Source: Polynucleobacter necessarius (GTDB taxonomy: Bacteria; Pseudomonadota; Gammaproteobacteria; Burkholderiales; Burkholderiaceae). Taken from it: a stretch of 64,000 nucleotides of DNA. Shown piece by piece: positions 15,701 through 64,000 of the stretch (position 1 is its first letter; each line of letters begins with the position of its first letter). The position numbers were made by a program, and so were the translations under genes. The notes under the pieces were generated by a model that was not told the origin of the DNA, did not search any database, and worked only from the letters and a program-made list of their open reading frames with translations. The DNA lies in NCBI RefSeq assembly GCF_900096755.1, contig NZ_LT615227.1, forward strand, positions 361,019 to 425,018, in the 5' to 3' direction.

Positions 15701-17205
15701 ATGAATATGGTGACCCCACCCCCCGATTTAGCCGCTATTAGCGCCCTTCAGTCCAAACTGGTGAAGGCATTGCGTCCAATCCTTCCGGAACATGCCCTTT
15801 TATGGCAACCGGAAGACACTATTATTCCCTACGAATGCGATGGTTTAGCGGCTTATAGACGTATGCCTCTAGCAGTAGCACTTCCGGAAACAGAAGAGCA
15901 AGTCGCCCAAATTTTGAAGATTTGCTACGCGATGCAAATTCCAGTGGTTCCCCGTGGATCTGGAACTGGCCTGTCCGGCGGCGCAATGCCTCTTTCTCAA
16001 GGCTTGGTGCTTTCATTAGCCAAGCTTAAAAAAATTATCAGTATTGATCCATTTACTCGCACAGCAGTGGTCCAGCCTGGCGTTCGCAATCTTGCGATCT
16101 CAGAAGCGGTGGCACATCTTGGTCTGTACTACGCGCCAGATCCTTCATCACAAATTGCTTGCTCGATAGGCGGTAACGTTAATGAAAACTCTGGCGGCGT
16201 GCATTGCCTTAAGTACGGACTTACTCTCCACAATGTTTTACGCGTCCGCGGAATACTGATGAACGGTGAGATTGTGGAATTTGGTGGTTTAGCACCAGAT
16301 GCCCCCGGTCTTGATTTGCTGGCAATCATGATGGGTAGTGAAGGCATGCTCGCAGTAGTTACTGAAGTCACCGTGAAATTAGTTGCTAAACCAAAATTAG
16401 CGCGCGTGATTATGGCCAGCTTTGATGGCATTGAAAAAGGCGGTAATGCTGTTGCCGCCATCATTGCTGCCGGCATCATCCCTGCTGGTTTGGAGATGAT
16501 GGATAAGGCTACTACCCGCGCCGTAGAAGAGTTTGTACGCGCAGGATATGACCTCGATGCTGTAGCAATTTTACTCTGCGAATCTGATGGCACCCCAGAA
16601 GAAGTTGCTGAAGAAATCGAACGCATGACCAAGGTGCTCGAAGAAGCTGGTGCCAGCGGCATCCAAATCTCTAAAGATGAGAGTGAGCGCCTAAAGTTTT
16701 GGAGTGGCCGCAAGAACGCCTTCCCTGCCGCCGGTCGCTTAGCGCCTGACTACTACTGCATGGACGGCACTATTCCTCGCCGCCATATTGCCACCCTACC
16801 CTACTCAAACGCATTCAGGGCATGGAAGAGAAATATGGCCTTGGTTGTTTGAATGTTTTTCATGCTGGTGATGGCAATATGCATCCGCTCATTCTATTTA
16901 ACGGCGCTGACCAAGAAGAATGGCATCGTGCTGAAGAATTCGGTACAGAAATTTTGGAGGCCTGTGTAGAGCTTGGCGGCACTATCACCGGTGAGCATGG
17001 CGTTGGCATTGAAAAAATTAATTCGATGTGCGCCCAATTTGGCGAAGGTGAGCGTGAATCTTTCTGGGGCGTGAAGAGCGCTTTTGATCCGGAGAAGTTA
17101 CTGAACCCAGATAAAGCCATTCCAACATTGAATCGCTGCGCCGAGTACGGTCGCATGAGAATTAGTGGTGGCCAATTGCCTCACCCAGAATTGGAGCGCT
17201 TCTAA
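15701..17205 (+). pseudogene. glcD: Glycolate oxidase subunit GlcD, frameshifted by a 5 bp tandem duplication
   Basis: FAD-containing catalytic subunit of glycolate oxidase, which oxidises glycolate to glyoxylate. The first frame ends at 16852 and keeps the FAD-binding PVVPRGSGTGLSGG region. The second frame resumes before 16822 with FHAGDGNMHPLILFNG and ITGEHGVG and runs to 17205. ACCCT is repeated in tandem at 16793-16802; removing one copy restores one reading frame of 499 residues from the ATG at 15701, the length of E. coli GlcD, and the joint then reads RRHIATLLKRIQGMEEKYG, which aligns well with the family. The frame is also open back to an ATG at 15683. As it stands the product lacks the C-terminal quarter and should be inactive. 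glcE and glcF are intact. Confidence 0.9.
16793..16802 (+). repeat. 5 bp tandem duplication inside glcD
   Basis: ACCCT occurs twice in direct succession (16793-16797, 16798-16802). One copy is an extra +5 insertion that breaks the glcD frame. Confidence 0.85.
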
Positions 17206-18350
17206 TGACAATCTCCAATCCGCAGATCAATGCATTCCGCGAGCAAATTCTAAATGCAGCCAAGAATAAGGCTTCGCTCTCAATTGAAGGTGGCGGTACA
17301 AAGTCTTGGTATGGGAATGCCAATAGCCATGAGAAGCTCGATACACGCCCTTACTCAGGAATCCTGGAATACCAACCGGAAGAACTGGTGATCACAGCAT
17401 GTGCAGGTACTCCGTTAAAGGAAATTGAAGCGGCACTGAAAGAAAAAAATCAGGTACTCGCTTTTGAGCCGCCTCATTTTGGTGAGAACGCAACATTTGG
17501 TGGCGCCATTGCTGCTGGCTTAGCGGGTCCAGGGCGCATTACGGTTGGCAATTTCCGTGACTTCGTATTGGGCGCTCGCATTCTGGATGGTAAAGGTCAA
17601 GACCTTTCATTTGGCGGCAAGGTCATGAAGAACGTAGCTGGGTATGATGTTTCGCGCCTGATTCCCGGATCCTTGGGAACTCTGGCACTTTTATTGGAAG
17701 CCTCAGTCAAGGTGCTGCCAAAGCCTGCCGCTACAGTTACATTACGTTGCAAGATTTCCCAAGAAAAAGCTCTGCAAGCATTAAATCAGTGGGCTGGCCA
17801 ACCCCTACCTTTATCAGCTAGCTGCTGGATTGGCTCAGGTAAGGACCAAGATGGAGAGCTCACTTTCCGTCTCGCAGGCGCAGCTGCTGCAGTTAAGGCA
17901 GCAATTCCTTTGATGAGTTCTTTGCTAAATGCTACGGAACTCAACGCAGAAGTTGCTGAAAATTTCTGGAATGAATTACGCGAACAAAAAATCGCTGCAT
18001 TTAATAATCTTGGCACCGATCAAACTCTCTACCGCTTGGCATTGCCTGCGGCGTGTGGACCCATTGCGATTGCCGGCGCCGATGATGAAATTGTTTTGGA
18101 GTGGCACGGCCAACAACGCTGGATTAAAGCGCCTGGTGATGAAGCTACCTTTAATACACTCAAAGCATTAGCAAACTCTCATGGTGGACATGCGACTCGC
18201 TTTAGACAGGGCGAAAACGTTGACCCTGCTTATCAGCGTTTTACATTGCTATCAGAACAATCTCATTCCAAAGCCCTCGAGGCAGTACAAGAACGCCTAA
18301 GATCAGCCTTTGATCCTGCTGGTGTATTTGCTACTAAACGTCTTCCATAA
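17205..18350 (+). CDS. glcE: Glycolate oxidase subunit GlcE (FAD-binding)
   Basis: Second FAD-binding subunit of the glycolate oxidase complex GlcDEF, 381 residues. The N-terminal FAD-binding type 4 domain (about 1-170) contains GGGTKSWYG near 25 and GENATFGGAIAAGLAGPGR near 87-105. The C-terminus, FDPAGVFATKRLP, is typical. Its ATG overlaps the glcD stop codon by one base, so translation is normally coupled to GlcD. With glcD frameshifted, ribosomes stop about 350 bases upstream, which may lower GlcE production. The gene itself shows no damage. Confidence 0.93.
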   Translation: MTISNPQINAFREQILNAAKNKASLSIEGGGTKSWYGNANSHEKLDTRPYSGILEYQPEELVITACAGTPLKEIEAALKEKNQVLAFEPPHFGENATFGGAIAAGLAGPGRITVGNFRDFVLGARILDGKGQDLSFGGKVMKNVAGYDVSRLIPGSLGTLALLLEASVKVLPKPAATVTLRCKISQEKALQALNQWAGQPLPLSASCWIGSGKDQDGELTFRLAGAAAAVKAAIPLMSSLLNATELNAEVAENFWNELREQKIAAFNNLGTDQTLYRLALPAACGPIAIAGADDEIVLEWHGQQRWIKAPGDEATFNTLKALANSHGGHATRFRQGENVDPAYQRFTLLSEQSHSKALEAVQERLRSAFDPAGVFATKRLP

Positions 18351-18358
18351 GTATTTCT

Positions 18359-19636
18359 ATGCAAACTCAACTCGCCCCTCAATTTGCCAACACACCGGAA
18401 GGTATCGAGGCAGCCCGCATTCTGGGTAAATGCGTTCACTGCGGTTTCTGTACTGCAACCTGCCCTACCTATCAGCTGCTTGGAGACGAATTAGATGGTC
18501 CACGCGGACGTATCTATCTGATCAAGCAGATTGCGGAAGGTCAGGCGCCTACCGAAAAGACTCGCCTGCATTTAGACCGCTGCTTAACCTGCCGTAATTG
18601 CGAGAGCACTTGCCCTAGCGGCGTGCAATACGGCAATCTAGTGGACATTGGCCGTAAATGGGCGGAAGAAAATACGCCTGCACATCCAATGGCACAACGT
18701 CTAACTCGTTGGGCCTTAAAAGAAGGCTCAACAACACCAGCTTTATTCAATGCAGCCATGACCTTGGGTCGATTGGTGCGCCCGTTAATGCCTAGCGGAA
18801 TCAAACGCAAAATTCCATTGGCGGTAAATAAAGCATTGGCTAGCAGCACTGATGCCTATGCAAGGCCGACTGCAATTCATCAGCGCAAAATGGTTTTGCT
18901 TGAAGGTTGCGTTCAACCTGGAATGCTGCCGAACATCAATTCAGCAACTGCCCGCGTACTGAATGCTTTAAAGATTCAATTAATTAGCGCGCCGAGCGCT
19001 ACTTGTTGTGGAGCACTGCGCTATCACCTCAATGATCAAGCTGGAGGCATAGATAATGCCAAGCAAAATATTGATGCCTGGTGGCCTCTAGTTGAAGGTG
19101 GTATTGAAGCTATTGTGATGACAGCCTCTGGATGCGGCGTCATGGTGAAGGACTATGGCCATTTATTTGCTAATGATCCTGCTTACGCAAATAAGGCCAA
19201 AAAAATCTCTGAGTTAACCAAAGATATTTCTGAAATTCTTCCAGCCCTCGAAAATGAACTCGTACAGTTGATTGGCACAGATCCAAAACCAGGCGTGGTG
19301 TATCACCCACCTTGCACTTTGCAGCATGGGCAACAAATTCGCGGAAAGGTAGAGGGTTTACTTTCTAGCATTGGGGTTGGTGTACGTTTATGCGCAGACA
19401 GTCATCTTTGCTGCGGTTCTGCCGGCATCTATTCAGTTACTCAGTCAGAGCTATCCGAGCAGCTCCGCAGAAATAAACTGACTCACTTAAATGCAGCCTG
19501 CGAGGAATCTGGGGTGGAGGTCATTGTCTCCGGAAACATTGGCTGCATCACCCATCTTCAGCAAGATGACACCCCAGTGGTGCATTGGATCGAAATCGTA
19601 GATCAATTGATCAGAAACTCTTCTAAGGCATTATGA
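18359..19636 (+). CDS. glcF: Glycolate oxidase iron-sulfur subunit GlcF
   Basis: Electron-transfer subunit of GlcDEF, 425 residues. Two 4Fe-4S motifs are complete: C25, C28, C31, C35 (CVHCGFCTATC) and C75, C78, C81, C85 (CLTCRNCESTC). Two CCG domains follow, with CCGAL near residue 220 and CCGSAG near 355. It lies eight bases after glcE and overlaps yggS by four bases, making one operon. Intact although the catalytic subunit gene is broken. Confidence 0.95.
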   Translation: MQTQLAPQFANTPEGIEAARILGKCVHCGFCTATCPTYQLLGDELDGPRGRIYLIKQIAEGQAPTEKTRLHLDRCLTCRNCESTCPSGVQYGNLVDIGRKWAEENTPAHPMAQRLTRWALKEGSTTPALFNAAMTLGRLVRPLMPSGIKRKIPLAVNKALASSTDAYARPTAIHQRKMVLLEGCVQPGMLPNINSATARVLNALKIQLISAPSATCCGALRYHLNDQAGGIDNAKQNIDAWWPLVEGGIEAIVMTASGCGVMVKDYGHLFANDPAYANKAKKISELTKDISEILPALENELVQLIGTDPKPGVVYHPPCTLQHGQQIRGKVEGLLSSIGVGVRLCADSHLCCGSAGIYSVTQSELSEQLRRNKLTHLNAACEESGVEVIVSGNIGCITHLQQDDTPVVHWIEIVDQLIRNSSKAL

Positions 19637-22084: not shown

Positions 22085-22090
22085 ATAGAA

Positions 22091-22096
22091 ATTATC
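22091..22096 (-). promoter_or_regulatory. -10-like hexamer of ubiA inside the end of recG
   Basis: On the minus strand GATAAT (five of six to consensus) ends six bases before the ubiA ATG at 22084 and overlaps the recG stop codon. It could be a coincidence of the stop codon context. Confidence 0.25.
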
Positions 22097-24167: not shown

Positions 24168-24200
24168 CGTTAAAATCTAATACCTGATGATGGTAATGCT

Positions 24201-26401
<2,201 letters not shown>

Positions 26402-29757: not shown

Positions 29758-32576
<2,819 letters not shown>

Positions 32577-32582: not shown

Positions 32583-33201
32583 ATGAAACTCATCGGATCC
32601 CTCACTAGCCCCTACCTACGTACGCAAGGTACGCATTGTTTTTAACGAGAAAAAGGTCGATGTAGACCTCGAATTAGAGAATGTTTGGGCCGCAGACACC
32701 AAAATTGGGGTCAACAACCCCCTTGGAAAGGTCCCCTGCCTGATTTCTGACGATGGAGAGGCCATTTATGACTCTCGGGTAATCGCCGAATATGCTGATG
32801 GCCTAAGCCCTGTAAGCAAGCTCATTCCAGCCGATAACCGTGAAAGAGCTTCGGTTAAAACCTGGGAAGCCCTGGCTGACGGCGTTATGGATGCGGGCAT
32901 CCTGGCCCGTTTGGAGCGCACCCTACGTCCGGTAGAGCAGCAAAGCCAAACTTGGTATGACCGCCAAATGGGCAAGATTGATGCCGCCCTTCGCCAAATG
33001 TCTGAACAACTTGGTGAAAACGCATGGTGTCATGGCAATCAAATTACTTTGGCGGACATTGCTGTCGGCTGTGCAATTGGATATCTATTGTTTCGCTTTC
33101 CAGAAGTGAAATGGCAAACACAATATCCAAACTTAGATCGCCTGCATAAAAAGTTATTGCAACGACCCTCTTTCATTGAGGCTGAACCACCTGCTGCTTA
33201 A
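32583..33201 (+). pseudogene. Glutathione S-transferase, frameshifted by a 4 bp tandem duplication
   Basis: The first frame reads MKLIGSLTSPYL and stops at codon 21. CTAC is present twice in tandem at 32612-32619. Without one copy the frame reads MKLIGSLTSPYVRKVRIVFN and continues to 33201 as a 204-residue glutathione S-transferase, with a thioredoxin-like N-domain including GKVPCLISDDGEAIYDSRVI and a helical C-domain with ITLADIAVGCAIGYL. The part from 32887 is open but lacks the glutathione-binding domain. Substrate unknown. A strong terminator follows. Confidence 0.88.
32612..32619 (+). repeat. 4 bp tandem duplication in the GST gene
   Basis: CTAC at 32612-32615 is repeated at 32616-32619. 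The extra four bases shift the frame after codon 11. Confidence 0.85.
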
Positions 33202-38339: not shown

Positions 38340-39077
38340 ATTAAGATGGCATCTATCGCCTCTGATAGGCCTCTGATAGCTGTTGGATAAATTGTCCTGT
38401 AATACATAGGCGATACCATTTGCAATTAAAGACAAATCCTTCTCCAACAGTCTGCTGCTATAAACCCAGCCAGCCGGAAGCTTGAGTTGCTTATCAAGCA
38501 GAGAAAGATCTTGCATGCTTAGTGATGATTCAACAATCTGAGAATAAGACTGCATCACATAAACATCTCCAGCAGGTGAAGTGAGCTCATAAATAGGGCT
38601 TCCTGCTTTATAGATAAAATTGGTCGTCCTGGTTATTTGATTGGGGGTGTAATGCTTGCTCCCTATTAGTTGTTTAAATAAGCTCAGATCAATAGTGGCA
38701 CGTAAATTCATCTCAATACCACCAAAAGACTCTTTAACGCCATTGATGGTTGCGCCTGCAGCCTGAATCTCATCCATCATCCAGTAGCGAGGGCCATTCA
38801 ATAAAACAAATGAAGCATCATGAGTTTTGGCAATCGATTCTTTGCTTAAAGATTTCCACTGGGCCTCAGGGCAAAGGTTAAGTCCTTGCGTATTAAATAC
38901 CCCCACTTCCAGCTGAAGCCAATTACGCTTCCCCACCAAAACCTCGCAATATCGCTGATTGCGCAAGTTCGTTATGCTTTTCTCAAATACTGGGATTGCT
39001 TGTGGGGAAGTCTGGGCGTATGCCGCACCAAAAGACAGGATAAGAAAGGCAGCTATCAACTTGAGGTATTTATTCAT
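38328..39077 (-). CDS. Conserved hypothetical secreted protein with a rewritten C-terminus
   Basis: The 249-residue protein has a clear signal peptide (cleavage likely after AAYA, about residue 21) and no domain I recognise. It carries two Cys residues in the N-terminal half, suited to a periplasmic disulfide. An 11 bp tandem duplication at 38358-38379 lies in its last codons. Without it the protein would end ...NSYQRR at a TAG; with it the frame shifts and adds PIRGDRCHLNLLQ before the next stop, making the gene overlap its convergent neighbour. The body is intact, so it may still work. It lies downstream of groEL but behind a terminator. Confidence 0.6.
   Translation of the reverse strand: MNKYLKLIAAFLILSFGAAYAQTSPQAIPVFEKSITNLRNQRYCEVLVGKRNWLQLEVGVFNTQGLNLCPEAQWKSLSKESIAKTHDASFVLLNGPRYWMMDEIQAAGATINGVKESFGGIEMNLRATIDLSLFKQLIGSKHYTPNQITRTTNFIYKAGSPIYELTSPAGDVYVMQSYSQIVESSLSMQDLSLLDKQLKLPAGWVYSSRLLEKDLSLIANGIAYVLQDNLSNSYQRPIRGDRCHLNLLQ
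38358..38379. repeat. 11 bp perfect tandem duplication
   Basis: GCCTCTGATAG occurs at 38358-38368 and again at 38369-38379. It falls at the 3' end of the minus-strand gene and changes its last residues. Confidence 0.85.
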
Positions 39078-39166: not shown

Positions 39167-40825
<1,659 letters not shown>

Positions 40826-41129: not shown

Positions 41130-41241
41130 CTCTTCTCCTATGTTAGTAAGTGTTAACTATTTAAATAAACTATATAAATCAATGATTTACAATCTCATTA
41201 CACGCAAATTAGGGTGAATTTACAAATAAACTGCCTATATT

Positions 41242-41268
41242 GTAGCACTCGCATGTAGGGAGTGCTGA
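41242..41268. promoter_or_regulatory. CIRCE operator (HrcA binding site) of groESL
   Basis: GTAGCACTC, nine bases, GAGTGCTGA: each arm matches the CIRCE consensus TTAGCACTC-N9-GAGTGCTAA in eight of nine positions with the exact 9-base spacing. It abuts the -10 box and covers the expected transcription start, so HrcA bound here would block initiation. Confidence 0.95.
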
Positions 41269-41298
41269 TTATATAGGTCTGATTCAGCGGATTTCAAG
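41268..41298 (-). promoter_or_regulatory. groESL promoter, overlapping sigma-70-like and sigma-32-like
   Basis: On the minus strand TTGAAA (41292-41297), 18 bases and a perfect TATAAT (41268-41273) make a good sigma-70 promoter. The same bases read CTTGAAA, 14 bases and CCTATATA, which resembles the sigma-32 heat-shock pattern. The second reading is inference. Confidence 0.75.
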
Positions 41299-41442
41299 GG
41301 CGGATCACCTTAAATTCTTTATGGATTTAAGCCCTATCTATACTGGGGACAGGTAAGTAGGCCTTTTCCTACAGATAAATCAGCCTTAAGCCCTTACCCC
41401 TCCAATCCGTCCTGCCTAGACTGGACAGTCACCGATTGGAAA
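41299..41442. other. Gene-free stretch upstream of groES and the EAL-like pseudogene
   Basis: Together with the groES leader and promoter this makes 313 bases without a gene. It holds an inverted repeat CTTAAAT-N9-ATTTAAG (41309-41331), eleven bases upstream of the groES -35, and a dyad GACTGGACAGTC (41419-41430) thirteen bases before the EAL-like start. Either could be an operator or chance. I see no RNA gene here. Confidence 0.4.
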
Positions 41443-42287
41443 ATGCTGATGAGCCCGAAATCCCGGCTGTACACGCTTGTAAAGGCATGGAAGAACAAAC
41501 CCTTCCAAGAAGTACGAGACGCCTGTGGCGCACCTTGGCATTAGCAGCCAAGCCCTTGAAGAACATCAATCCTGGTCCAAGCGACAAGCGATTAGCCATG
41601 AACCCATATTTAATTGCAAGGGGACAAAACTGATCGGATCTTTATTTAGACCATTAATCACCGCAACTGATATGCAGTTTCTACGCCTTTTTTTATGGAA
41701 GGCCTAGATGCTTCTCTTACTGGCATCGTAGCGGAAGATTTATTCCTGGAATCTTGCCCGTTCCAACAAATGTCATGGCATCGAGCGAGTATGTAGACGC
41801 CATGAGTGATCTGATTTTGAATTCACGCCTACCAGTCGGATTGGTAGCTATCGGACTTCAGTCTATTCCCGAGTACAGCATGTCATCCACATATAAAGAT
41901 GGCTTACTGCGAATGCGCCGTCTAGGAGCGTTGCTGCACTTTCTCAATTTTTCAGGCAGCGTTGAGCAATTGCAGTGGGTGGAAGAGATGCAAATGGATG
42001 GCGTTCATATTGATATGACTCAACTCCGAAACGAGATGCTGCCGTTTGATGCGCTCTCACAAATAAGACGGCCTGCGTACTCATCAACACAAATTTACGC
42101 TAGCAATATTGCGCTTGTAAAAGATATTGAAAATGCCGCTGAGTGGCAGATAGACTATTGCTATGGCGGTTTGATGATGCCCCCATTAAGTAGGCACCAA
42201 ACCTTACAAATTAATGATAGCAGAATTGCTAAAGCCATTTTTTCGCTGCACCCTCATCAACACCCAAACCAAAACGGAGATAAGTAA
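41443..42287 (+). pseudogene. Degenerate EAL-like (BvgR-like) protein, two frameshifts
   Basis: Three frames in succession carry plausible protein: MLMSPKSRLYTLVKAWKNKP from 41443; KKYETPVAHLGISSQALEEH through SLFRPLITATDMQFLRL; then YWHRSGRFIPGILPVPTNVM to the stop at 42287. Removing one C at about 41505 and one T of the seven-T run 41688-41694 joins them into 280 residues. The last part resembles a degenerate EAL domain without the EAL catalytic residues, the kind of protein BvgR is in Bordetella. It directly precedes a BvgA-like regulator and a BvgS-like kinase and overlaps the former by one base. The EAL link is tentative; the gene's broken state is well supported. Confidence 0.6.
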
Positions 42288-42917: not shown

Positions 42918-45347
42918 ATGCATCGGTTCATTATCTTTTTAGCCCTTGTTGCCTCCATACTGGCAAATGGAACTATCCATGCGCACACTCTAGGCCATGA
43001 AGAGCGGCAATGGATCGATGCTCACCCAATTGTTCGATTTAGCATTCATGAAAAGTATGCGCCATACTTGCAAAGCAAACAGGGCAGCGCAGATGCTGGT
43101 GTATTTCACATGCTTCTTGAAAAGCTAGGGAACTACACTCAACAGCAATTTCTACCGACATGGAGAAAAACAGATAAGGAAGGCTTACGTCAGCTAGCTA
43201 ATGGCGAAGTAGGCTTCATCATTGATCCACCTGCGCTCGATGAGGAGTATCTTCGATTCGGCGCATTATCGGAAGCCATTTTTTGGGGTCATGATGCCAT
43301 CCTTACCAACACCGCTAAGGGGATAAATTGACCCCAATAATGTTGCGTATTTTGATCGCGGCTTTGAGGGCCAGCTTTTTATCACAGAGCCCAATGCAAA
43401 TATATCTAGCCAAATCGACAAGCTAACCTTTGACTTGCTCAAAAATGATATTGACGCCCTGATTCTCCCGATACGCCTGGCTCAGCAATGGATAAAAAAG
43501 TTGGATAAGGTAGAACTGCGTATAGATGGCCTCTACACCAGGGAGCCTTTTGCATATCGCTGGCTCATCTCACATCAGGATGCCCCGCTCAATCAAATTC
43601 TTGATGACTTCCTCGAAAACCTTGATCCAATTGAATCGCGCCATTTATTTGCTATTCACCCCCTAGAGTTGCAGTCTAGTAATAGCCCTCACTGGAACAA
43701 GCTAGCTTGGATTTCAACTCTCTTACTACTAATGGTCGGGACATTGATGATGTGGCGCTGGCAAAGAACGAAAGCGCTTCAAGAGCAAATCACGACAAAC
43801 TTGATTTTTTCTAAGGAGATTGCAGAAAAAGCAAATGCGGCTAAATCTGCCTTCCTAGCAACTATGAGCCATGAGATTCGCACGCCGATGAATGCCATTC
43901 TGGGAGTACAGGAGCTATTACTCACGAGCCAGAAATTTCCAGCGAACGATAAATTACTCTTAAAGAGCGCTTATGCTTCCGCAGAATCACTCTTGGGCAT
44001 TTTGAATCAGGTTTTAGATCTCTCCAAAATAGAGGCAGGAAAATTAACGCTCAATTTAGAGCCTTACTGCCTCAATTCTCTGATTGATGACATTGACTCA
44101 ACCTTCGCAACGGTAGCCAATAAACATAAGCTCGCGCTGTATACCATTAAAGACCCGCGTATTGCCCCCGTCCTCATGATGGACGCCTTACGACTTCGTC
44201 AAATCCTGCAAAACTTACTAAGCAATGCAATTAAATTTACCGATCAAGGTGAAATTTACTTCTCCATTGGCGTATTGGCCGATGACCATGCTGGACAACT
44301 GATTGAGTTTCGCGTTATTGATACTGGTATTGGCATGGGCAAAGAAGAAATCAAGCTAGTACTTCAAGCCTTTGAACAAGTACCAGGAAAAACAGATCAA
44401 ACCAATGGAACCGGGCTCGGCCTTACCATCACCAATCATCTAGTGACATCAATGAACAGCCAACTGTACTTTGAGAGCGATCCTGGATTTGGAAGCAACA
44501 TCCATTTCAGCATTGCATTTCCTCGTACAGGTATGGCAGCGTCGAAGACCGGCGCTGATAGCAGCCAAATACTGCTCTCTAGGAAAATTGTCTCTAATAG
44601 CTCTGTGGCCGAGAAACGAACGCTCCACGCATTGGTAGTTGAGAACCATCCCGCTAGCCGCCACAAATCATATCCTTACAGCTGGAGGCATTCGGCATTG
44701 AAGTGAAAGTCTGTGAAAGTGCATTCATAGCAATAGAGCTGCTTTCAAAACAGCATTTTGATTTACTCATTACCGATCAATCCATCCCAGGAATGCAGGG
44801 GTCTGATTTGGCTAAGAAGATTCGTTCGCTGGGATTTACGGATCTCATCATCATCGGAGTAACGGCAGATATCTATGCTCTAGATTCTCGCCATCGGTTT
44901 TTGGCGGCCGGAATGAACGGGGTATTAATTAAACCGCTTAGCCTAATGAGCCTTAAAAATGAACTTGCCCGCTATTTCAAGATTATTGAAGTTGACGCCT
45001 TAGAAGGCTTACAAAATACTTCGGATGAATATACCTTTGACGCCTTCGCGAATCTCTTAAGAGAAAAGCCAAATCAAGTCGTAGTGATACTCGATGAGAT
45101 TAAAAAAGTGCACGACGAAGTCTTGGAGATGTTACAGAACAAGCCAGTCAATGAGGTCTTATTAAAAAGCCTAATTCATAAAGTAAAAGGGGGTGCTCAG
45201 TTACTCAGCGCTCAAGAATTCATTCAATCTTGTGAACGCCTGGAGAATGAAGCCTCCCTCCCCACAACAATAGAGTCATTTCAACTAGTCCTACAGGATC
45301 AAAACCAGAATATTCTTCGTCACATGAAGAAGTTTTCAGATTCTTAA
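42918..45347 (+). pseudogene. BvgS-like hybrid histidine kinase, two frameshifts
   Basis: Sensor kinase in three pieces. Piece 1 (42918-43331) has a signal peptide and the first half of a Venus-flytrap solute-binding sensor domain. Piece 2 (about 43330-44706) completes that domain, has a membrane helix (about 43705-43750), the HisKA H-box [14 protein letters not shown] and the HATPase motifs [15 protein letters not shown] and GTGLGLTI. Piece 3 (about 44665-45347) has a receiver (phosphoacceptor in LLITDQSIPGM) and an HPt-like end. The joins need removal of one T at 43328-43329 and of one CA of the CACA at 44662-44665; the result is 808 residues. The receiver's acidic pair reads E-N in VVENHPASR, another possible loss. 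Partner of the preceding regulator. Confidence 0.88.
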
Positions 45348-45388: not shown

Positions 45389-46909
45389 ATGCGACACTTT
45401 TTTAAATGCCTTCGTAAACCCACTTTAGCCGCCCTAACGGTCTGTGCTGGCTTACTCACCCCTTCAGTTCATGCGGATGATGTCAATGGATCCATTCCCA
45501 AGGCAGTAAGCAATAGCCTAGAGCGCAATCAAATCCCAAAAGACTCCATCAGCATTTCGGTCATTGAAATCGAACCCAGCAACCCAGGGAAATATGTTGG
45601 CAAGAGCGTTTTAGATTGGCGTGCAGCAGAGGCCATGAAGCTAGTAACAACGCTTACGGGCCTAGACATTCTGGGATCTAAATATCGCTGGCACACCAAT
45701 ATATATACCGATGGACTGATTCGACAAGGAACACTGAAGGGCAACTTGTATTTACAAGGCACAGGTGATCCAAAGCTTATTCTAGAGGAGCTGGCTAAGC
45801 TCATGAAAGAATTGCAGAATCTGGGAATACAAAAAATTGATGGCAATTTATTCTTTGATCGTAGTGCCTATGCGCCAAGCGTCATGGAACACAATACGAT
45901 CGACGGTGAGTCGCTGCGCGCGTACAACGTTCCGCCGGATCCTTTGCTTTATGCATTTAGAACGCTCTCCTTTCAGCTAGGTAAATCGCGTACTGCCGAC
46001 TTCATAGATGTCAACTACACACCCACTCTATCGGGGCTAAAAATTGATAACCAAATGCAATTGGTTGATCGGTCATGTGACAGCTGGAAAAGTAATATCC
46101 AATTTAATCTTGACCCAGAGGGTGGAAGTGGCACTAGCCAACTATTGACTGCACAATTCTCTGGCGCATTTCCAAGCGGTTGTAAAGGCGTTAATTACAA
46201 CGTAGTTGCTCTGGATGCCGATACATTTTTGACCCAAGGATTTACTGCTGCCTGGGAATTAGCTGGTGGAAGCTGGGTGCAGCCACCAATTGGTAAAAAT
46301 GCTACGGCACCACTTGCGGCCCGCTTACTACTGTAATATGAAGGCATCACCCTGGGTGAGGATGTGCAGGATATTAACAAGTACTCCAATAATGTCATGG
46401 CTCGTCAGGTCCTCTTAACGCTGGCATTGGAAAAAATGGGTAAGCCTGCCACTACCGCCAACGGAGAATTGGTTATTCAAAGTTGGCTCAAGCAGAATGG
46501 CCTTGGTTTCTCTGGCCTGGTAATTGAAAATGGCTCTGGACTCTCTCGCAATGAAGCGATTACTGCAGGGAATATGAACCAACTACTATTAACCGCGCGT
46601 AATCTGCCAGTGGGAGATATCTTCTACAACAGCCTGCCAATTGCCGGAACTGATGGCACGATGCGCAATCGCTTAATGACACAACTCAGAAAATTTTTAC
46701 ATCTTAAGAAAAAACCTGAGGCCAGAATTAAAACCGGATCACTAGCAGATGTGCGCGCTATCTCAGGCTATGTATTGAGCAAATCCGGAAAGATGTATGC
46801 GGTAACTTCTTTTATTAACCGCCCCAATGCATGGAGAGGTCTTGAGGCACATGATCAGTTATTGACGTGGCTGCTTGAGGATGGTCCAGAACCAAAACAC
46901 GCGCGCTGA
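45389..46909 (+). pseudogene. dacB: D-alanyl-D-alanine carboxypeptidase/endopeptidase (PBP4), dead
   Basis: Peptidase family S13 enzyme that trims peptidoglycan cross-links in the periplasm. A signal peptide (cleavage near HADD, about residue 30), the SxN motif in KYSNNVMARQ and the KTG motif in ARIKTGSLAD are present. Two lesions are seen. An in-frame TAA at 46334-46336 interrupts the gene at codon 316, after which the same frame continues YEGITLGED to the end. Also, where the family has a PASTMK-like SxxK site, this protein has WRAAEAMKLVTT, so the nucleophilic Ser is missing, which fits an in-frame deletion of about six codons between short repeats around 45633-45640. The product is inactive even with readthrough. 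Its end overlaps sua5 by 55 bases. Confidence 0.85.
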
Positions 46910-47960: not shown

Positions 47961-49133
47961 CTAGGGCTCGATCCCTAATTCAGAAGCAACGGCTGCGCAA
48001 TTTTGACGAGCCTCACCTAAACAGTTGATGTGACCCATTTTTCTTCCGATACGCGGATCTGATTTACCGTAAAGATGAAGTTTTGCATCTGGATGTGCAA
48101 GCACCTTATTCCAGGCGGGTTCTTTTGCGCGATCCTCACTACCTTCAAACCAAAGGTCGCCCAATAGATTAAGCATTGATACTGGCGCCAACTGACGTGT
48201 GTCGCCGAGAGGTAGACGTGCCATTGCTCTCACCTGCTGCTCAAACTGACTGCTGACGCAAGCATCCATCGTGTAGTGGCCAGAGTTATGCGGACGAGGA
48301 GCGATTTCATTGGCAACAATATCGCCGTTTTTCAATATAAAGAATTCGATGCAAAGTACGCCAACGTAATCAATCTTTCGAATCAGCGCTTTAGCAGCTT
48401 CGATAATTTTCTTTTCTTGCGCCGGCTTGAGGGATGGAGCTGGCACAGTCGAGGTATGCAAAATACCATCACGGTGAATATTTTGAGATACAGGATAAGC
48501 AACTACAGCATCGTCATAACCACGCACGACCAATGCCGAAACTTCAAAATCTAAATCCATGCGCTTTTCTAATACGCAAGGAACGCGACCAAAATTATTC
48601 CAAACCGTTTTCAAACCTTCTGAGTCATAGACAGTGGCCTGACCTTTTCCGTCATAGCCCATGCGCGCGGTCTTCAAAATTCCGGGAAAAAGGTCTGCGG
48701 GAACATGATCGATATCGGCATCATACTCAATCACAAAGTTGGGTGCGGGACCAATATTCGTTTCGGATTTCCAGGTGGCTAAAAATTTCTTCTCGGCTAC
48801 CCGATTTTGCGCTAAAGATACGCAGCTACTGCGTGGGGCGACAAAGACACCCAATGACTCGAGCTCATCCAACGCCTGTGCTGGCACATTCTCAAACTCC
48901 GTACTAACTGATGCACAAAGTGAGGCCATCTCTTTTAGAGCAGCAGAATCCGTGTAATCCGCTTGGATAAATTTTTCTGCAATTGAGCCAGCAGGGCTAT
49001 TGGATCCAGGATCCAAAACGCAAACTTTGTAACCCATTGACTGGGCGGCTTGAGTAAACATCCGACCCAATTGACCGCCACCTAATATTCCTAAATATGA
49101 ACCCGGCAAAATGGGCTCCATACGATCTGCCAT
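47961..49133 (-). CDS. purK: N5-carboxyaminoimidazole ribonucleotide synthase
   Basis: ATP-grasp enzyme that carboxylates aminoimidazole ribonucleotide with ATP and bicarbonate, in purine synthesis. The 390 residues show LGILGGGQLGRMFTQAAQ near 14-31, KTARMGYDGKGQ near 154-165 and the C-terminal EIAPRPHNSGHYT near 266-278. It lies three bases after purE, the usual partner that moves the carboxyl group. Confidence 0.96.
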   Translation of the reverse strand: MADRMEPILPGSYLGILGGGQLGRMFTQAAQSMGYKVCVLDPGSNSPAGSIAEKFIQADYTDSAALKEMASLCASVSTEFENVPAQALDELESLGVFVAPRSSCVSLAQNRVAEKKFLATWKSETNIGPAPNFVIEYDADIDHVPADLFPGILKTARMGYDGKGQATVYDSEGLKTVWNNFGRVPCVLEKRMDLDFEVSALVVRGYDDAVVAYPVSQNIHRDGILHTSTVPAPSLKPAQEKKIIEAAKALIRKIDYVGVLCIEFFILKNGDIVANEIAPRPHNSGHYTMDACVSSQFEQQVRAMARLPLGDTRQLAPVSMLNLLGDLWFEGSEDRAKEPAWNKVLAHPDAKLHLYGKSDPRIGRKMGHINCLGEARQNCAAVASELGIEP

Positions 49134-53134: not shown

Positions 53135-53136
53135 AT

Positions 53137-54348: not shown

Positions 54349-54555
54349 GAGATTGGGGCAAATATGATGGTTTATGGGGAATGCTCCATTCTAAATGCTC
54401 TGGGCCACCAAAACCAATGGAATGGGCCGATCTGACTGCGCTGCCTGCTCTACAATAGAGATAGAGACTTGGACGCAATTTGGCCCCAGAATGAATAAAC
54501 CCCTAGCCTAGCGCCCCGATTAACCCGGTTTAATAGATATAAAAAGGTAGAGAAA

Positions 54556-55479: not shown

Positions 55480-55493
55480 TTAGGAAAAGAGAT

Positions 55494-55682: not shown

Positions 55683-55688
55683 GCCTTA

Positions 55689-55710: not shown

Positions 55711-55725
55711 GTCGGGATACATCTC

Positions 55726-56760: not shown

Positions 56761-56780
56761 TCATTCAAGGAATGTAAGCC

Positions 56781-57215: not shown

Positions 57216-57226
57216 CTACAACAGAT

Positions 57227-57853: not shown

Positions 57854-59556
57854 CCAGGCATTTGCTTGCCCTGCTCCCTGAGCTCATCTTGATACTGTCT
57901 TTGCATTTCACGAAGACGAGCATCAATACTAGATCCTTGATAGTAATCTGCACCGCCCGCTGAGCGCGCGATCTTGAGTTGCTCAATCGCTGAAGGCCAA
58001 GCACCCTCAAGAGCATACTTTTCTCCAAGGGCGTAATGTCGCATCGGAATATTTTTGGCTTGATCATAAGATTTAGAAAGCAATTCCCACCAAACAATTT
58101 CATTCGGCTGCGATCTGGTGCGTGCCTTAAGCCATGTAATCGCATCATTGGTTCGACCTAGCCTAAGATCAGCATTGATCATTGCAGCACCAGCAGCATA
58201 GGACTGCGGGAAGGCCCGTAAGGTTGCCTGAGCAATCTGTAAGGCTTCCTCACCTTTGCCTTTAGCCAAAGCTAATTCGGAAGCGGTGATATCAAGTGAG
58301 AGACTTTGTCTTTGAATCAGAGAACCGGGCGCACTAGCGGTCTGAGCCAAATTGCGAGCTTGCTGCAGGTAAGTTTCGGCTTGGTCTATTTTCCCTTGGC
58401 GCTGAGCAACGAGAGCAAGGCCATAAAAACCTTCCATTTGTTTACCAATAGGCGCTTGCTTACTGAGACTCTCAAAGGTATTTTTTAAATCGTACATGCC
58501 ACTAGATGTGCCAGATTGCTCCATTCGCGCTCTAGCCTTAATAAAATAAAACTCAATAGCAGTAGATACATTACGCGAGGGAATAATCGTGCGCACTCTA
58601 TCTTGCATGTCTGCAATACGATCGGTCGTTAATGGGTGAGTTCGGACATAAGCTGGTACGCCCTTATCCATAACGCCTGTGATTTTTTGAAGGCGCTGAA
58701 AAAATCCTGGGGCACCATTTACATCATATCCACTGGCATCCAAAATCTGGAATCCAATGCGATCCGCTTCTCGCTCCGCATCCCTTGAATAAGAAAGTTG
58801 ATTATTTACTGCTGCTGCCTGACCGCCCTGTATGAGGCCCGCGCCCGCAGATGGATTGCGTGACATCGCTAAGGCACCAAGCACCATGCCCGCAAGTGCA
58901 ATCATGGTGTTGGTAGCCTGTTTATCCATTTGGCGCGCTAAATGTCTTTGCAGGACGTGACCAGTTTCATGCCCCATGACTGAAGCCACCTCAGAGTCTG
59001 ACTCAGCACTAACAATCAATCCAGTATTAAAGCCAATGAAACCACCAGGCAATGCAAACGCATTGATGCCGCTGTCTTTAACTGCAAACACTTCAAAGTT
59101 ATAAGCCCCGCTACCCTGCTCATTCGCACCCCCAAGCTGTAATTTTTTAGCAGCTTGTAATAAACGGCGCTCCATTTGATTGAGATAGTCATATAACGGC
59201 AAGTCGTTGGAATATTCTGGATCAGGCCGTATCTGACGCATGATCATCTCGCCATACTTGCGCTCATCCACCCTACTTAGAGTATCCCCGCCTGGGTCAC
59301 CCATATCGGGCAAGACAATATTTGGCTGGACTTGGAGAGTATTACGTGTTGGCAGCTTTGACGAGCGAGCATCAGGCGATTGCATTGCTCTGCCAATATT
59401 TTGAATTGCAGCAGAGTTACCATCAACCGTAACATCGCCAGCAGCTGAGGCTGCAAAGGCAGGCGTAATACCCGCACAACTTAAGGCAAACATCAGCTGC
59501 ACAGCCAATAGGCGCTGTAAAAAAGAGGGTTTTTTAACTGACTTTATGTCTTGCAT
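57850..59556 (-). CDS. M48 family metalloprotease with TPR repeats (BepA-like)
   Basis: Periplasmic zinc protease of 568 residues. A signal peptide is present (cleavage near AFAAS, about residue 36). The HExxH motif is HETGH near residue 196, with the third ligand in READRIG near 260; TPR-like repeats fill the C-terminal half. BepA in E. coli assembles or degrades the LPS transporter LptD and other outer-membrane proteins. Divergent from moaC with 23 bases between starts. Confidence 0.9.
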   Translation of the reverse strand: MQDIKSVKKPSFLQRLLAVQLMFALSCAGITPAFAASAAGDVTVDGNSAAIQNIGRAMQSPDARSSKLPTRNTLQVQPNIVLPDMGDPGGDTLSRVDERKYGEMIMRQIRPDPEYSNDLPLYDYLNQMERRLLQAAKKLQLGGANEQGSGAYNFEVFAVKDSGINAFALPGGFIGFNTGLIVSAESDSEVASVMGHETGHVLQRHLARQMDKQATNTMIALAGMVLGALAMSRNPSAGAGLIQGGQAAAVNNQLSYSRDAEREADRIGFQILDASGYDVNGAPGFFQRLQKITGVMDKGVPAYVRTHPLTTDRIADMQDRVRTIIPSRNVSTAIEFYFIKARARMEQSGTSSGMYDLKNTFESLSKQAPIGKQMEGFYGLALVAQRQGKIDQAETYLQQARNLAQTASAPGSLIQRQSLSLDITASELALAKGKGEEALQIAQATLRAFPQSYAAGAAMINADLRLGRTNDAITWLKARTRSQPNEIVWWELLSKSYDQAKNIPMRHYALGEKYALEGAWPSAIEQLKIARSAGGADYYQGSSIDARLREMQRQYQDELREQGKQMPG

Positions 59557-59566
59557 GCCTATATGG

Positions 59567-59572
59567 TAAAAC
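59567..59572 (+). promoter_or_regulatory. -10-like hexamer of moaC
   Basis: TAAAAC ends seven bases before the ATG at 59580, in an intergenic space of only 23 bases; no Shine-Dalgarno sequence is seen. Confidence 0.3.
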
Positions 59573-59579
59573 TAATCCT

Positions 59580-60085
59580 ATGAACAAACTAACCCATTTT
59601 GATGCCAGCGGCCAAGCCCACATGGTAAATGTTGGCGATAAGCCCACATGGTAAATGTTGGCGATAAGCCCAATACTCATAGAGTTGCAGTTGCTACAGG
59701 TACGATTTCGATGTTACCCGAAACCTTCAAAATGGTTGAAGCCGGGACCCACAAAAAAGGTGATGTCTTAGGTATTGCCCGAATTGCAGGGATTCAAGCG
59801 TCCAAGAAAACATCAGACCTCATTCCGCTTTGTCACCCGCTGGCCCTGACTCATGTCGGCCTAGAATTTAGGCTCAACCCTAAAGAAAGTAGTGTCACCT
59901 GCCAAGTTAAAGCAGAAACTACCGGGCCTACTGGCGTTGAAATGGAAGCCCTCACTGCAGTCCAAGTTGCCCTACTCACAATCTACGATATGTGCAAAGC
60001 AGTAGATCGAGGGATGGTGATGGGTGATGTGAAACTCTTAGAGAAGAGTGGCGGCAAGAGTGGTGAGTGGAAGGCGGGGAAGTAA
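59580..60085 (+). pseudogene. moaC: Cyclic pyranopterin monophosphate synthase MoaC, disrupted by a 26 bp duplication
   Basis: Makes cyclic pyranopterin monophosphate in molybdenum cofactor synthesis. From the ATG at 59580 the frame reads [20 protein letters not shown] and then hits TAA at 59652-59654, because 26 bases are duplicated at 59615-59666. The second copy's ATG at 59648 restarts the correct frame as [15 protein letters not shown] and continues to the end with [25 protein letters not shown] and [11 protein letters not shown]. Without the duplication MoaC has 159 residues, a normal length. The restart codon overlaps the new stop, so a 145-residue protein lacking the first 14 residues might still be made by reinitiation. 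Confidence 0.88.
59615..59672 (+). repeat. 26 bp tandem duplication at the start of moaC
   Basis: Positions 59615-59640 are repeated exactly at 59641-59666, and six bases of a third copy follow. AAGCCCA occurs at the edges 26 bases apart, which suggests slippage between 7 bp direct repeats. Confidence 0.95.
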
Positions 60086-60127
60086 ACCTCAATAACGGCC
60101 GCTATACTGAAAAATAAATTAATCGTA

Positions 60128-60821
60128 TCAGCGGAGGTTGTATTTCAAAATGCAATAAATCGCACGAAATCCGTCTCTCCAACCTATCTTCTTATCTTCG
60201 TCATAGGTACGGCCATAGTACGAAATGCCCACTTCATATAATGTGGCAGTTTAATTTAGATACTTTGGCAGTAATTTCAGGCTCAAAACCAAAGCGATTT
60301 TCTTCGCTTGGAATACTTTGAATAATCTCTCTGCGAAATACTTTGTAGCAAGTTTCCATATCGGATAGGTTGAGATTGGTGAACATATTGGACATTAAAG
60401 TAAGCATGCCGTTGCCAACTCGATGCCAAAAATAAAGTACACGATGTGCGTCGCCACCTAGAAATCGAGACCCAAAAACCACATCAGCCCGATTCTTTAA
60501 AATAGGTTCCACCAGACGAGGATACTCATTTGGATCATATTCCATACCTGCGTCTTGAATAATGACCAAATCTCCAGTGGCAGCAGCTATCCCAGTTCTT
60601 AATGCGGCACCTTTGCCTTGATTGATGTCATGGTAGAGGACTTGGTGAACTTTGCCAGAATGCTCAATAGTGGATTTTAATTTTTCGCGCGTCCCATCGG
60701 TAGAATAATCGTCTACGATAATAATTTCCTTATCAGGATAGGGGGCAGCATTTACAGCTTCGATAATTGCATCAATAGTAGTTAATTCATTGAAACAGGG
60801 GATGATGATAGATAAGCGCAT
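60128..60821 (-). pseudogene. GT2 glycosyltransferase (dolichyl-phosphate-mannose synthase-like), frameshifted near the end
   Basis: Family 2 glycosyltransferase, GtrB/DPM1-like, that would charge a polyprenyl-phosphate carrier with a sugar. The start [33 protein letters not shown] and the metal site [13 protein letters not shown] are intact. After ...[10 protein letters not shown] one extra base at 60240-60241 creates a stop at 60234-60236. In the shifted frame the protein continues [20 protein letters not shown] and ends at 60128, giving 230 residues in all. The lost tail is conserved in the family (YGRTYDEGKKI). The 195-residue truncated form might retain some activity, but the lesion matches its neighbours. 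Confidence 0.87.
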
Positions 60822-60859
60822 TTTTAACTTTCTAATTAATCAAGAGAATTATGTATGAA

Positions 60860-62537
60860 TTATTTTTTGTGACTAAACCCATCATCTATATTTTTACTCC
60901 CAACCCCTTGACCCCCAAGCCTAAGCTCTTGATTAAAGTAAGGGGTGCATGGGAGAGGTGAATCCCAACACTGGTTTCCCAATTTAGGCACAAAAACTCT
61001 CAATCCAGACGAGGTTACCTCCTCCTTAGTTTCGACCGCTGGAATGGCAAATTTTTCAAATCCGCCTTTTGAATCATCAGCAACAGAACTATTGCGCCAA
61101 AAAAAAGAGGGATCAAATAGACAGGCAACCTCTCAATATAGCGAGCAACTCCAGTGGGGGTGAAATATCTAACCAATATGAATCCAGATAAGGCTACATA
61201 TAGCTGAGGGATGGCGCCGAAGAAGCGCCAATTAGACGCGGTAATGAACCAAAACAGCATGCCAGCCAAGAGGGGAACATATAGGACATATAAATCTTTT
61301 TCTACTCGTTGTTTTTTAAATAGTAAGGCCATTAAATTCAATGCCGTCAGTATTAAACAGCCATATACGTATCGCCAATGCTCCTTGAGTAGACGCACCC
61401 CCCAATCCGGAAACCAGGCCCATGAATCCAACACTTCACTAGGAATTTTATTTGGCGTCCTTGCCCAGCTATATATCCAATCCGCCTCGTTCTTTACTTG
61501 CTCATAAGATACAGCCCAGTCAAGATCCCACATTGCTCCAAGGGTACTTGGATAGATCGCAAGCCCAGAATTCAAAAATCCTCTAAGGAGATGCACCCCA
61601 ACGAGGGAACCTCCCAGCAGAAATGAATTGAGATATATTTTTTTATTCTGATGAAAATCTTTAACAAGCGCTGGCAAAACAATTATTATCGACATTAAGG
61701 CAAAAACCGCAGCACTAACTTTTACGGGGTTACCACTAAACAAGATAACAAAAGCACCATTGCCACATTGGAGGCAACATCATCAACAGTCTGGAATTTT
61801 CTAGAATATATTTGCAATAGAAATATAAAAATGCAAGACTCAACGAGAGTTACCGCGATATCCGGACTTGGTGAGGCCGTATTAGACACCCCAATAAATG
61901 CTACAAAAATCCAAATATTTAACCACCAGCCGCCCCTAATATCTTTTAGGCGAGCCTCCATAAGAGTGGCAGCAGAAATTACTAGCATCAATAGGCCGCC
62001 CAATGCATAACCCCTGTTGAAAAATGGAAAGAAATTTAATAGCCCTACAAAACTAAAATAGGCCTGATTAAATCCTAATCGCCCATGTACATTTCCCAGT
62101 CCTAGCACTACAGGAAATTCATTAAGCCACCTAATGCTTTGAAAATGATAAAGGCCTGAATCATAGTTCGCAGGAGCAGTCAAAGCCAAAGAGCCCACCA
62201 CCAAAAGTATTACAAATCCGATTAAAGATGGAATTGGGTTTACGCCAAGAAACGACTTCAACTTTAGAACTTGATGGCTAGGATTACTCTTAATAAAACT
62301 CAATAGCCCTATCATCAAAAATAGAACGGAAACCTTTCAATCTATTGGGACCCAAATATTGCAAGCCTCAACCAGCAAAATCGCAGTAACAAGCCCCAGC
62401 CAAGCATCTGAGAATTTGAGCCTATGGTTAAGCCCAATAATATTTTTTGTAAGAATCCCCCATCCAATAAAGCTCAAGAGCCAAATAGATAAACCAAAAA
62501 ATAAGCCGCCTAAGTCAAGAAGATGAGAATTCATCAC
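60860..62537 (-). pseudogene. Large membrane protein of the glycan cluster, three lesions
   Basis: Polytopic membrane protein of about 557 residues, in pieces. Piece 1 (62337-62537) ends at an in-frame TGA at 62337-62339, probably from a Trp codon (PID-W-KVSVLF). Piece 2 runs to 61722, where GGGG at 61726-61729 carries two extra bases. Piece 3 (61743-61015) is followed by an indel in the T5 run 61052-61056; beyond it the other frame reads FAIPAVETKEEVTSSGLRVF and VPKLGNQCWDSPLPCTPYFN to a TAA at 60860. About ten hydrophobic segments are visible. I do not know the family; membrane glycosyltransferase-like or LIC_10190-like proteins are candidates. Confidence 0.75.
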
Positions 62538-62588
62538 ATTTATTGAAATTTAATTAACACATTAGGAACTCGCACCATGATCGAGACA

Positions 62589-63454
62589 TCAAACATAAAG
62601 CAAACGTTTTTCTTGGGGCTTAAATCTTATTGAGTGCTCAGTAAAATCAGTGTTAATAAGCTTTGGATTGATGAATATTTTGTATCCATTCTGAACAATC
62701 CCCAAATGCAAAGAGGCATGGTCAACAATTTCTACCCCTTCACTATTTAAGCCTACATACTTAGAATTACTATCAAGGAGTGTCTCGCGCTTGTAGATTG
62801 CCAAGCCACCAAATGCAGACGAAACCTCAATCCACTCCGCATCCATAGGAATGACAATCATTTTTGAATATACGGCTGCATAAAGTAGATTGGCGCTATC
62901 TTCCGGATTTTTTGCAAACCGGTTCAAATACCTAAACTGCTCCCAGCAGTCTCCCGGACGCCAGATAGGGTGACGAAGTGCCCAAATATCATAGTAATTT
63001 CCACGCTGATTTGCCGTGCATACATCCCAGATATCTCTCTCAAAACAAGAGTAGATACCTTCTTTCGTCAGAAGGTTATTTACCCCATCTAAGTCAGCCA
63101 CAGCAACATAGTCAAAATCACTGTAAGTTGAATTATTTCTTATTTCATCGAGATAAATGTTTCGGCAAAATGCAAGGCGCTGGGTACGCAAAGGCATCTT
63201 CTCGGACAATGCGCCAGCAGACTTATAGTGGAAATTTTTAACATCTTGACTTAACTCAGACAATTTTTTAATTGTATTGTCGCTGCTGTCAGATTCAATA
63301 ATTAGCCAATGTATTTCTGAAAAATCACTAAATGCATTTTGAAGACTATAAATCTCAGGCGCAATAGTGTTTTCACCATTTCTAATAACACCAACAATAA
63401 GTATTTTTTATCAGCCCATTTATTGGCTTCGGAATATTTTCTAGTACTATACAT
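62589..63454 (-). pseudogene. Putative glycosyltransferase, N-terminal frameshift
   Basis: The long open part (62589-63263) continues upstream in frame as ILIVGVIRNGENTIAPEIYS and LQNAFSDFSEIHWLIIESDS, but no start codon exists in that frame. An ATG at 63454 reads MYSTRKYSEANKWADKK in another frame. The T6 run 63404-63409 (A6 on the coding strand) must have gained two or lost one base; correction gives about 287 residues. The N-terminal part looks like a nucleotide-sugar-binding fold, and YVAVADLDGVNNLL is a DxD-like motif, as in GT2 or fungal CAP59-like mannosyltransferases. Family uncertain. Confidence 0.7.
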
Positions 63455-63488
63455 TTTATATTCCGTCCCTTAAGACAAATTCATTCAG

Positions 63489-64000
63489 ATGAAAAAAACA
63501 TTGATGTTTCAGTGGTTTGATTGCAAAGATATAGCTCGAAAGCAAGAGCTAACTGACTGCATTAACCATAATTTAGCCATTGGATTTGATGAGGTAATTA
63601 TTTACAACGATTCTGTCGATCCTATTTTTCACGGTCAAAATATAAAAAACGTATCAACCCATAGCCGAATTACTTACAGCGACTATATTAACGTAGTAAA
63701 GGATCCCAGTAACTATGGTTCTCTCGTTGTGCTTACGAATACCGATATCAAGCTAGATAAAGATATTCTGTCTCTTGATAGCCTTATCAAAGAAAAAACT
63801 TTGATTGCTCTAAGTAGATACGAAAAAAAACGGAATACTTGCAGACTTCCCATGGTGCACGCAGGATGTATGGGCAATGCTTTCGCAACCAATTCACAAA
63901 AGCGTGATTCATCAATGCGATATTCCATTGGGGCTGCCGGGCTGTGAAGTCAGATTCTCAGAAATCCTTTTCAGTACGGGTTTTGCTGTCTTCAACCCCC
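63489..64000 (+). pseudogene. Putative glycan-biosynthesis protein, frameshifted and cut by the window edge
   Basis: The frame from 63489 starts MKKTLMFQWFDCKDIARKQE and contains VVLTNTDIKLDKDILSL (a DxD-like motif) and LIALSRYEKK. At the A8 run 63823-63830 the sense changes: the continuing protein, GILADFPWCTQDVWAML and IPLGLPGCEVRFSEIL, lies in another frame and is open to the window's end. One A too many explains it. Without the extra base the segment is one continuous open frame of about 170 residues here. The family is unnamed to me; SRYE...QDVW and a late GC-R pattern occur in proteins of polysaccharide clusters. Confidence 0.65.

Follow-up and report, generated by a model that had tools for sequence, protein, structure and literature searches.

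In a 64,000-nucleotide stretch of the Polynucleobacter necessarius genome (the window, G000:C1:361019-425018), genes are broken mainly by small insertions that copy the neighboring bases. This was the claim of the original prediction, made from the letters of the window, and it extends well beyond the window: over 366 kb of the same genome (G000), a three-way comparison assigns 157 insertions and 72 deletions to its branch. The bias is present in two separate blocks and is seen neither on the sister branch nor in a second genome undergoing decay; it has passed through a selection filter, and the old loss of MutS and MutL does not by itself explain it. The pattern points to an unusual, recently acquired fault of DNA maintenance. 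The reading we favor, to which we give an even chance, is that this PnecC lineage recently entered decay, that short de novo tandem duplications there exceed deletions, and that the cause lies in later losses of DNA-processing functions, with UvrD (helicase II) and the large subunit of ExoVII (XseA) as the leading candidate losses atop the old loss of mismatch repair.

G000 is a single-contig genome of 1,705,691 bases. The placement of the window in PnecC Polynucleobacter rests on colinear relatives: the sister G048 (1.92 Mb) is ~90% identical across the window, and the outgroups G047, G086, G146, and G108 are ~78-81% identical across most of it. P. necessarius has been proposed as a species for obligate endosymbionts of ciliates (PMC5018217); for G000, it is the gene decay that suggests such a lifestyle. 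Indels in the window relative to G048 were listed across the aligned stretches and then polarized by eye with up to four outgroups. An automatic three-way rule, in which G048 and the outgroup G086 must match in length between anchors, covered block A (121019-425018, which includes the window) and block D (1000001-1140000); these are centered ~0.8 Mb apart and together give the 366 kb compared, ~21% of the genome. The branch of a second decaying genome, PPGSP2 (G129), was polarized over 172 kb with sister G008 and outgroup G077. Rows left out for want of an outgroup or as ambiguous numbered, respectively, 104 raw indels and 35 in block A, 18 and 18 in block D, and 27 and 17 for PPGSP2. An earlier run on block A gave insertions:deletions of 117:49, or 106:44 once duplicates were removed. 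The rule overlooked an in-frame deletion of 60 bp in gyrA, which means that it counts too few of the larger deletions.

Insertions outnumber deletions in each block (107:44 in block A and 50:28 in block D), and 132 of the 157 insertions are exact tandem duplications. The share of exact copies far exceeds a random-insertion null at every size: 36/42 at 1 bp (44% expected), 29/33 at 2 bp (17%), 31/34 at 3 bp (5%), and 36/48 at 4 bp or more (0.6%). Duplications of at least 2 bp number 96, 72 of which are 2-4 bp long, and most of them have fewer than three repeat copies; among those of at least 4 bp, the pre-existing repeat is just 0 or 1 bp in 25/36. When bases rather than events are counted, the small indels of both blocks come close to parity, with deletions slightly ahead (585 bases inserted, 665 deleted). 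The insertion bias in the 366 kb is real and unusual by event number, not by bases. The genome itself is 1.71 Mb against 1.92 Mb in the sister, a difference whose direction was not polarized.

The sister and PPGSP2 branches give a different picture. Over the same two blocks the G048 branch carries 11 insertions and 9 deletions, and only one of those insertions is an exact duplication; substitutions are nearly equal on the two branches, at 7849 on G000 and 7986 on the sister for block A and at 3953 and 4008 for block D. The PPGSP2 branch, on which substitutions run somewhat above those of its own sister (9677 vs 7847), carries 21 insertions and 32 deletions. The ratios of G000 and PPGSP2 differ when all sizes are taken (Fisher p = 0.00013) and more sharply for indels of up to 6 bp (97:25 in block A vs 16:28, Fisher p = 4e-7), and duplications of at least 2 bp number 96 in 366 kb of G000 against 4 in 172 kb of PPGSP2 (p = 7e-12). 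Samples of 20 kb from three further genomes, polarized with distant references, gave insertions:deletions of 4:2 (G118), 3:5 (G017), and 7:7 (G035). Raw ratios at such reference distance are untrustworthy, and G115, a genome that lost uvrD independently and kept xseA, was compared on exact tandem events only; in its 104 kb, exact tandem insertions number 27 and deletions 8, on a long branch and with distant references.

The original prediction had named a loss of mismatch repair as a possible cause of the bias. The absence of the genes holds: neither mutS nor mutL has a match in G000. This loss is shared by the clade, however. No mutS match was found in 13 of 18 relatives from the same genus either; mutL scores above cut-off in 24 of 151 genomes of the genus (incomplete assemblies included), and the 40 with any mutL match do not include G000, G048, G086, G129, G008, or G077. 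A survey reports that both genes are absent from all 20 PnecC genomes examined (PMC5644125). PPGSP2, searched for mutL, is itself decaying without a mutL match and without the bias. The loss of mismatch repair, which is old and shared and may be needed, therefore does not look sufficient. Replication slippage caused by this loss alone, and seen here under relaxed selection, would account for insertions that copy adjacent bases directly, and some one-base changes do sit in runs. Yet the usual mark of absent mismatch repair is one-base changes in homopolymer runs, and such changes, in runs of four or more, make up only 26 of the 229 events (15 insertions and 11 deletions); moreover, many of the duplicated units span 4-26 bp, which exceeds what MutS recognizes well. 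Slippage from this source alone is in our view unlikely, and as a cause the suggestion of the original prediction is incomplete and lacks support.

Losses confined more closely to G000 were sought among 11 repair and replication genes. The reading frames of polA, recJ, rnhA, dnaQ, xseB, ligA, uvrB, and uvrC are intact, and these were set aside as broken candidates. The uvrD gene, outside the window, is a pseudogene (G000:C1:305147-307488; the G048 copy is at L137:5852-8215) with changes of +2, -29, and +2 and four nonsense codons. These seven disabling hits are the highest number among 228 genes of block A; as a per-length outlier uvrD was dropped, because some shorter genes equal or exceed it per kilobase. 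The name rests on best matches (TIGR01075 at 931 bits, cut-off 1144, with the Pfam UvrD domains well above their cut-offs). Ten of the 11 further genomes looked at keep the gene intact (G048, G086, G047, G129, G008, G077, G017, G035, G118, and G117), and in G115 (L255) it has been wrecked independently. The xseA gene (G000:C1:921921-923086, within L251, 916001-930000) is disrupted by a duplication of +5 and by a nonsense codon. A match to xseA is present in 137 of the 151 genomes of the genus, and the remaining 14 are all assemblies of at least 40 contigs, as are the four in which the gene is split with a stop (G152) or lies on two contigs (G001, G067, and G104); among the single-contig genomes, only G000 has no unbroken xseA match. 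Both genes are intact in PPGSP2. A Y-family translesion polymerase (L250, G000:C1:1250001-1254000) carries an in-frame stop, and the copies in G129, G017, and G115 are split or partial, so that its loss, being common to PPGSP2, does not track the bias. Finally, the acidic C-terminal tail of GyrA is 20 residues shorter in G000 owing to the in-frame 60-bp deletion, seen relative to G048, G086, and G077; this deletion lies between short direct repeats near G000:C1 205242-205420 on the minus strand, and an 11-bp duplication sits directly upstream of gyrA at 207908. Among the retained genes, recJ (G000:C1:1099838-1101660) has gained an in-frame +18 that adds three Ala-Lys pairs, and dnaG (G000:C1:288244-290220) an in-frame +6 that adds one.

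The bases that flank the duplications carry a footprint. Those of at least 2 bp, 88 of 96 of which were usable in the test, tend to have C immediately 5' and G immediately 3' of the repeated run. The signal is confined to duplications of 3-4 bp, where 41 of 76 ends carry the respective base (C on the 5' side, G on the 3' side) against 18.7 expected under a local null, and both ends together do so in 13 of 38 cases against 2.3; nothing significant was seen at 2 bp or at 5 bp and above. By block, the counts are 26/46 ends (11.4 expected) and 8/23 at both ends (1.3) in block A, and 15/30 (7.3) and 5/15 (1.0) in block D. A two-fold symmetric C...G context at a stagger of about four bases could fit a filled-in break made by a type II topoisomerase. 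In yeast, trapped Top2 yields de novo duplications of 2-4 nt by a route that requires nonhomologous end joining (NHEJ), according to PMC11477040, and PMC12004951 describes ExoVII of E. coli as excising trapped gyrase complexes; gyrase-linked illegitimate recombination is discussed in PMC11164529. This suggested to us that gyrase or topoisomerase IV complexes left unrepaired without ExoVII might be filled in and rejoined to give the 3-4 bp class, in keeping with the broken xseA and the shortened GyrA tail. Against this, Ku (PF02735) was found in none of eight genomes, G000 included, whereas in yeast the duplications depend on NHEJ; and sizes do not peak at 4 bp in the spectrum, only a part of which trapped complexes would account for. 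As the explanation of the pattern, trapped topoisomerase is improbable to about the same degree as slippage. The fuller proposal, a bacterial counterpart of the topoisomerase II duplication signature, in which loss of ExoVII (with UvrD) and of part of the GyrA tail would let gyrase or topoisomerase IV breaks be filled in and rejoined independently of Ku, giving the 3-4 bp duplications between C and G and so helping to drive decay through duplications in place of deletions, is a shade more doubtful still.

Failed processing of 5' flaps (polA or FEN1-type) is quite improbable: in other organisms such failure makes duplications flanked by short repeats, and the size range and type of duplication here resemble those reports, but rnhA and polA are intact, the single polA change at positions where 12 further sequences do not vary (S641G) lies outside the N-terminal 5' nuclease, and the large duplications mostly lack a prior repeat longer than 1 bp.

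The indels have passed through selection. Events of frameshift size occur at 2.07/kb outside genes and at 0.17, 0.34, 0.35, and 0.38/kb in gene quartiles of decreasing conservation, a ~12-fold deficit in the first, and none was called in valS, alaS, ileS, rpoD, dnaG, gyrA, ligA, polA, lepA, uvrB, or uvrC. Of the 348 genes compared in G000, 72 are broken (17 of 148 in PPGSP2), among them uvrD, comEC, moaC, ahpF, an acyl-CoA synthetase, and a TRAP permease; between G048 and G086, the genes broken in G000 show lower conservation than the unbroken genes (p = 0.0009). In-register nonsense codons number 23 over 228 genes of block A. Because conserved genes are spared in this manner, and read errors do not usually take the form of exact 2-26 bp duplications, assembly or sequencing error is highly improbable as the source of the insertions, even though the indels are abundant without a matching rise in substitutions on the G000 branch and were judged from the assembly alone.

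The same genes bear on the age of the decay. Their nonsynonymous/synonymous count ratios on the G000 branch are 0.187 in block A and 0.266 in block D, where the sister branch has 0.139 and 0.170, respectively. These values lie well under the neutral value of ~2.5-3, which indicates that the branch was mostly under selection; gene inactivation in G000 is recent, in support of the original prediction on that point. When the broken genes were worked by hand, G000 showed ~104 excess nonsynonymous changes and 112 indels, PPGSP2 ~114 and 20, so that indels per neutral change are, by this rough reckoning, about six times more frequent in G000. Two of the damaged genes outside the window deserve description. 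The DNA-uptake gene comEC (G000:C1:1105435-1107896) is broken by -21, +3, +4, +2, and -1, and an RNase E/G-like gene (G000:C1:1019574-1022711), less than 60% of which lies in one frame, has gained 18 bp in tandem within a repeat array (~1019928) and 24 bp in a further insertion.

Under the reading we favor, the old loss of MutS and MutL would have been followed, on the G000 branch, by loss of further DNA-processing functions; the 3-4 bp class would come from staggered double-strand breaks 3' of C on each strand, filled in and rejoined, and the remaining sizes from ordinary slippage left uncorrected for lack of mismatch repair. Several observations weigh against it. As to the contrast with other branches, the G048 branch has eight insertions to two deletions in block D, none of them tandem (3:7 in block A); the contrast with PPGSP2 is weaker in unconstrained DNA, that is, nongene DNA plus broken genes (123:49 vs 19:21, Fisher p = 0.005); and PPGSP2 itself gives 73:55 with distant references, so insertion counts vary with the reference. 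G115, whose branch is long, is intermediate between G000 and PPGSP2 in the density of duplications of at least 2 bp (11 in 104 kb); the difference between its exact-tandem insertion:deletion ratio and that of PPGSP2 falls short of significance (27:8 vs 13:11, p = 0.09), and its six duplications of 3-4 bp show no C...G excess. As to the break model, the flank motif was spotted post hoc with the blocks pooled and afterwards observed in each of them, no preferred size of 4 bp emerges, and with Ku absent no enzyme stands out for the rejoining that the eukaryotic model includes. As to the candidate losses, 3 of the 11 genes examined are broken, which is close to the overall rate of ~1 in 5, so the losses may be coincidental; xseA itself bears a tandem duplication, and the process may therefore predate its loss.

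Within the window, the automatic rule assigns 11 insertions and 6 deletions to the G000 branch, and the automatic pipeline counts 6 of 48 compared genes as broken. Among the insertions, the +1 at 4488 and the +1 at 32540 are intergenic and doubtful by eye. Polarization upheld the +26 in moaC, the +5 in the glcD-like gene, the +4 in the glutathione S-transferase-like gene, and the +2 (CA) in the histidine kinase as insertions, and protein homologues agree with a net +1 in the glycosyltransferase family 2 (GT2) gene and at 63.8 kb. The +2 read in a membrane protein (~61.73 kb) and the 11-bp duplication at 38358 lie where no outgroup aligned suitably. The list in the original prediction lacked four insertions (+3 at 15820, +3 at 24185, +3 at 58580, and +6 at 54455, all on the G000 branch), and its view that dacB holds the single internal deletion missed five others (-5, -1, -2, -9, and -12). 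In dacB the deletion is present, in frame; it is a nonsense codon, not a frameshift, that closes the reading frame. The +1 C and +1 T that had been read in an EAL-like gene, taken here as the gene at 41.2-42.3 kb, are in fact changes of -5, +2, and -1; no Pfam family was found in the G048 copy of this gene.

Features of the window bearing indels or broken frames (window coordinates)
Position	Strand	Feature	Basis
15101..15664	-	Gene carrying -2 (15105) within a run of T close to the 3' end, G000 branch	Outgroup alignment, automatic rule
15683..17205	+	glcD-like gene (FAD-linked glycolate oxidase subunit); +5 tandem duplication at 16793 breaks the frame; +3 at 15820	
24185..24187		Intergenic tandem duplication of TGA (+3)	
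32590..33201	+	Glutathione S-transferase-like gene; frame lost at 32611 through a +4 tandem duplication	
39167..40810	-	In-frame -9 at 39180 in a repeated C-terminal tail	
41230..42287	+	Broken gene: -5 (41534), +2 (41688), -1 (41712)	
42918..45347	+	Hybrid histidine kinase (HisKA, HATPase_c, response regulator); frame lost through a CA duplication (+2) at 44662 and, near 43319, a shift of one base	
45389..46909	+	dacB-like gene (Peptidase_S13): in-frame -18 at ~45625, in-frame nonsense codon at 46334	
48013..48014		In-frame -12 inside ORF 47961-49133 (-)	
54455..54460		+6 ATAGAG tandem duplication, intergenic	
59580..60085	+	moaC, broken by 26-bp tandem duplication (59614-59672)	
60131..60821	-	Glycosyltransferase family 2 gene, net +1 at ~60240	Protein homologues
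63489..64000	+	Uncharacterized gene, net +1 in an A run at ~63825, extends past the window end	Full-length homologues of ~232 aa

Some of these assignments carry qualifications. The glcD models score best for the glcD-like gene, under their cut-offs, and the top model for the glutathione S-transferase-like gene reaches 180.6 bits against a cut-off of 181. The gene at 39167..40810 we take to be groEL. The shift near 43319 in the kinase is +1 relative to G048 and lies within diverged sequence. From 60100 to 64000 the GC content is lower (40%), and this part of the window, which holds the GT2 gene and uncharacterized genes, is also decaying; the colinear G048 stretch contains nothing that corresponds to the 60-64 kb island, whose indels were judged by protein homologues alone.

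Genome reduction is usually credited to a general deletion bias. Our results indicate that the spectrum of small indels can turn insertion-biased within one lineage, given a sister with equal substitutions and a second decaying genome as controls, and the order in which repair genes are lost may shape how a genome decays. They also leave a short list of candidates (uvrD, xseA, and gyrase) and a sequence footprint to seek in other genomes. A literature search for such a spectrum returned no title or abstract opening that describes it, which is no proof of absence.

Known systems resemble G000 in part. Set beside gene decay in P. necessarius and other recent symbionts, it is likewise a PnecC genome with many broken genes and a disrupted Y-family polymerase; it departs from PPGSP2 in that its small indels are insertion-biased tandem duplications. 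Bacterial small indels are deletion-biased in literature cited in PMC10292909; G000 conforms by bases and differs by number. With mismatch-repair-deficient mutators it shares the lack of any MutS or MutL match, but events in homopolymer runs are few, and PPGSP2 lacks a mutL match without showing the bias. The Top2 duplication signature of yeast, and ID17 in humans, as described in PMC11477040, is eukaryotic; G000 is a bacterium without Ku, has a longer size tail, and its topoisomerase lesion is putative. What the two have in common are short exact duplications, mostly with no prior repeat, to which the two-fold symmetric flank of the 3-4 bp class in G000 may be added as a likeness.

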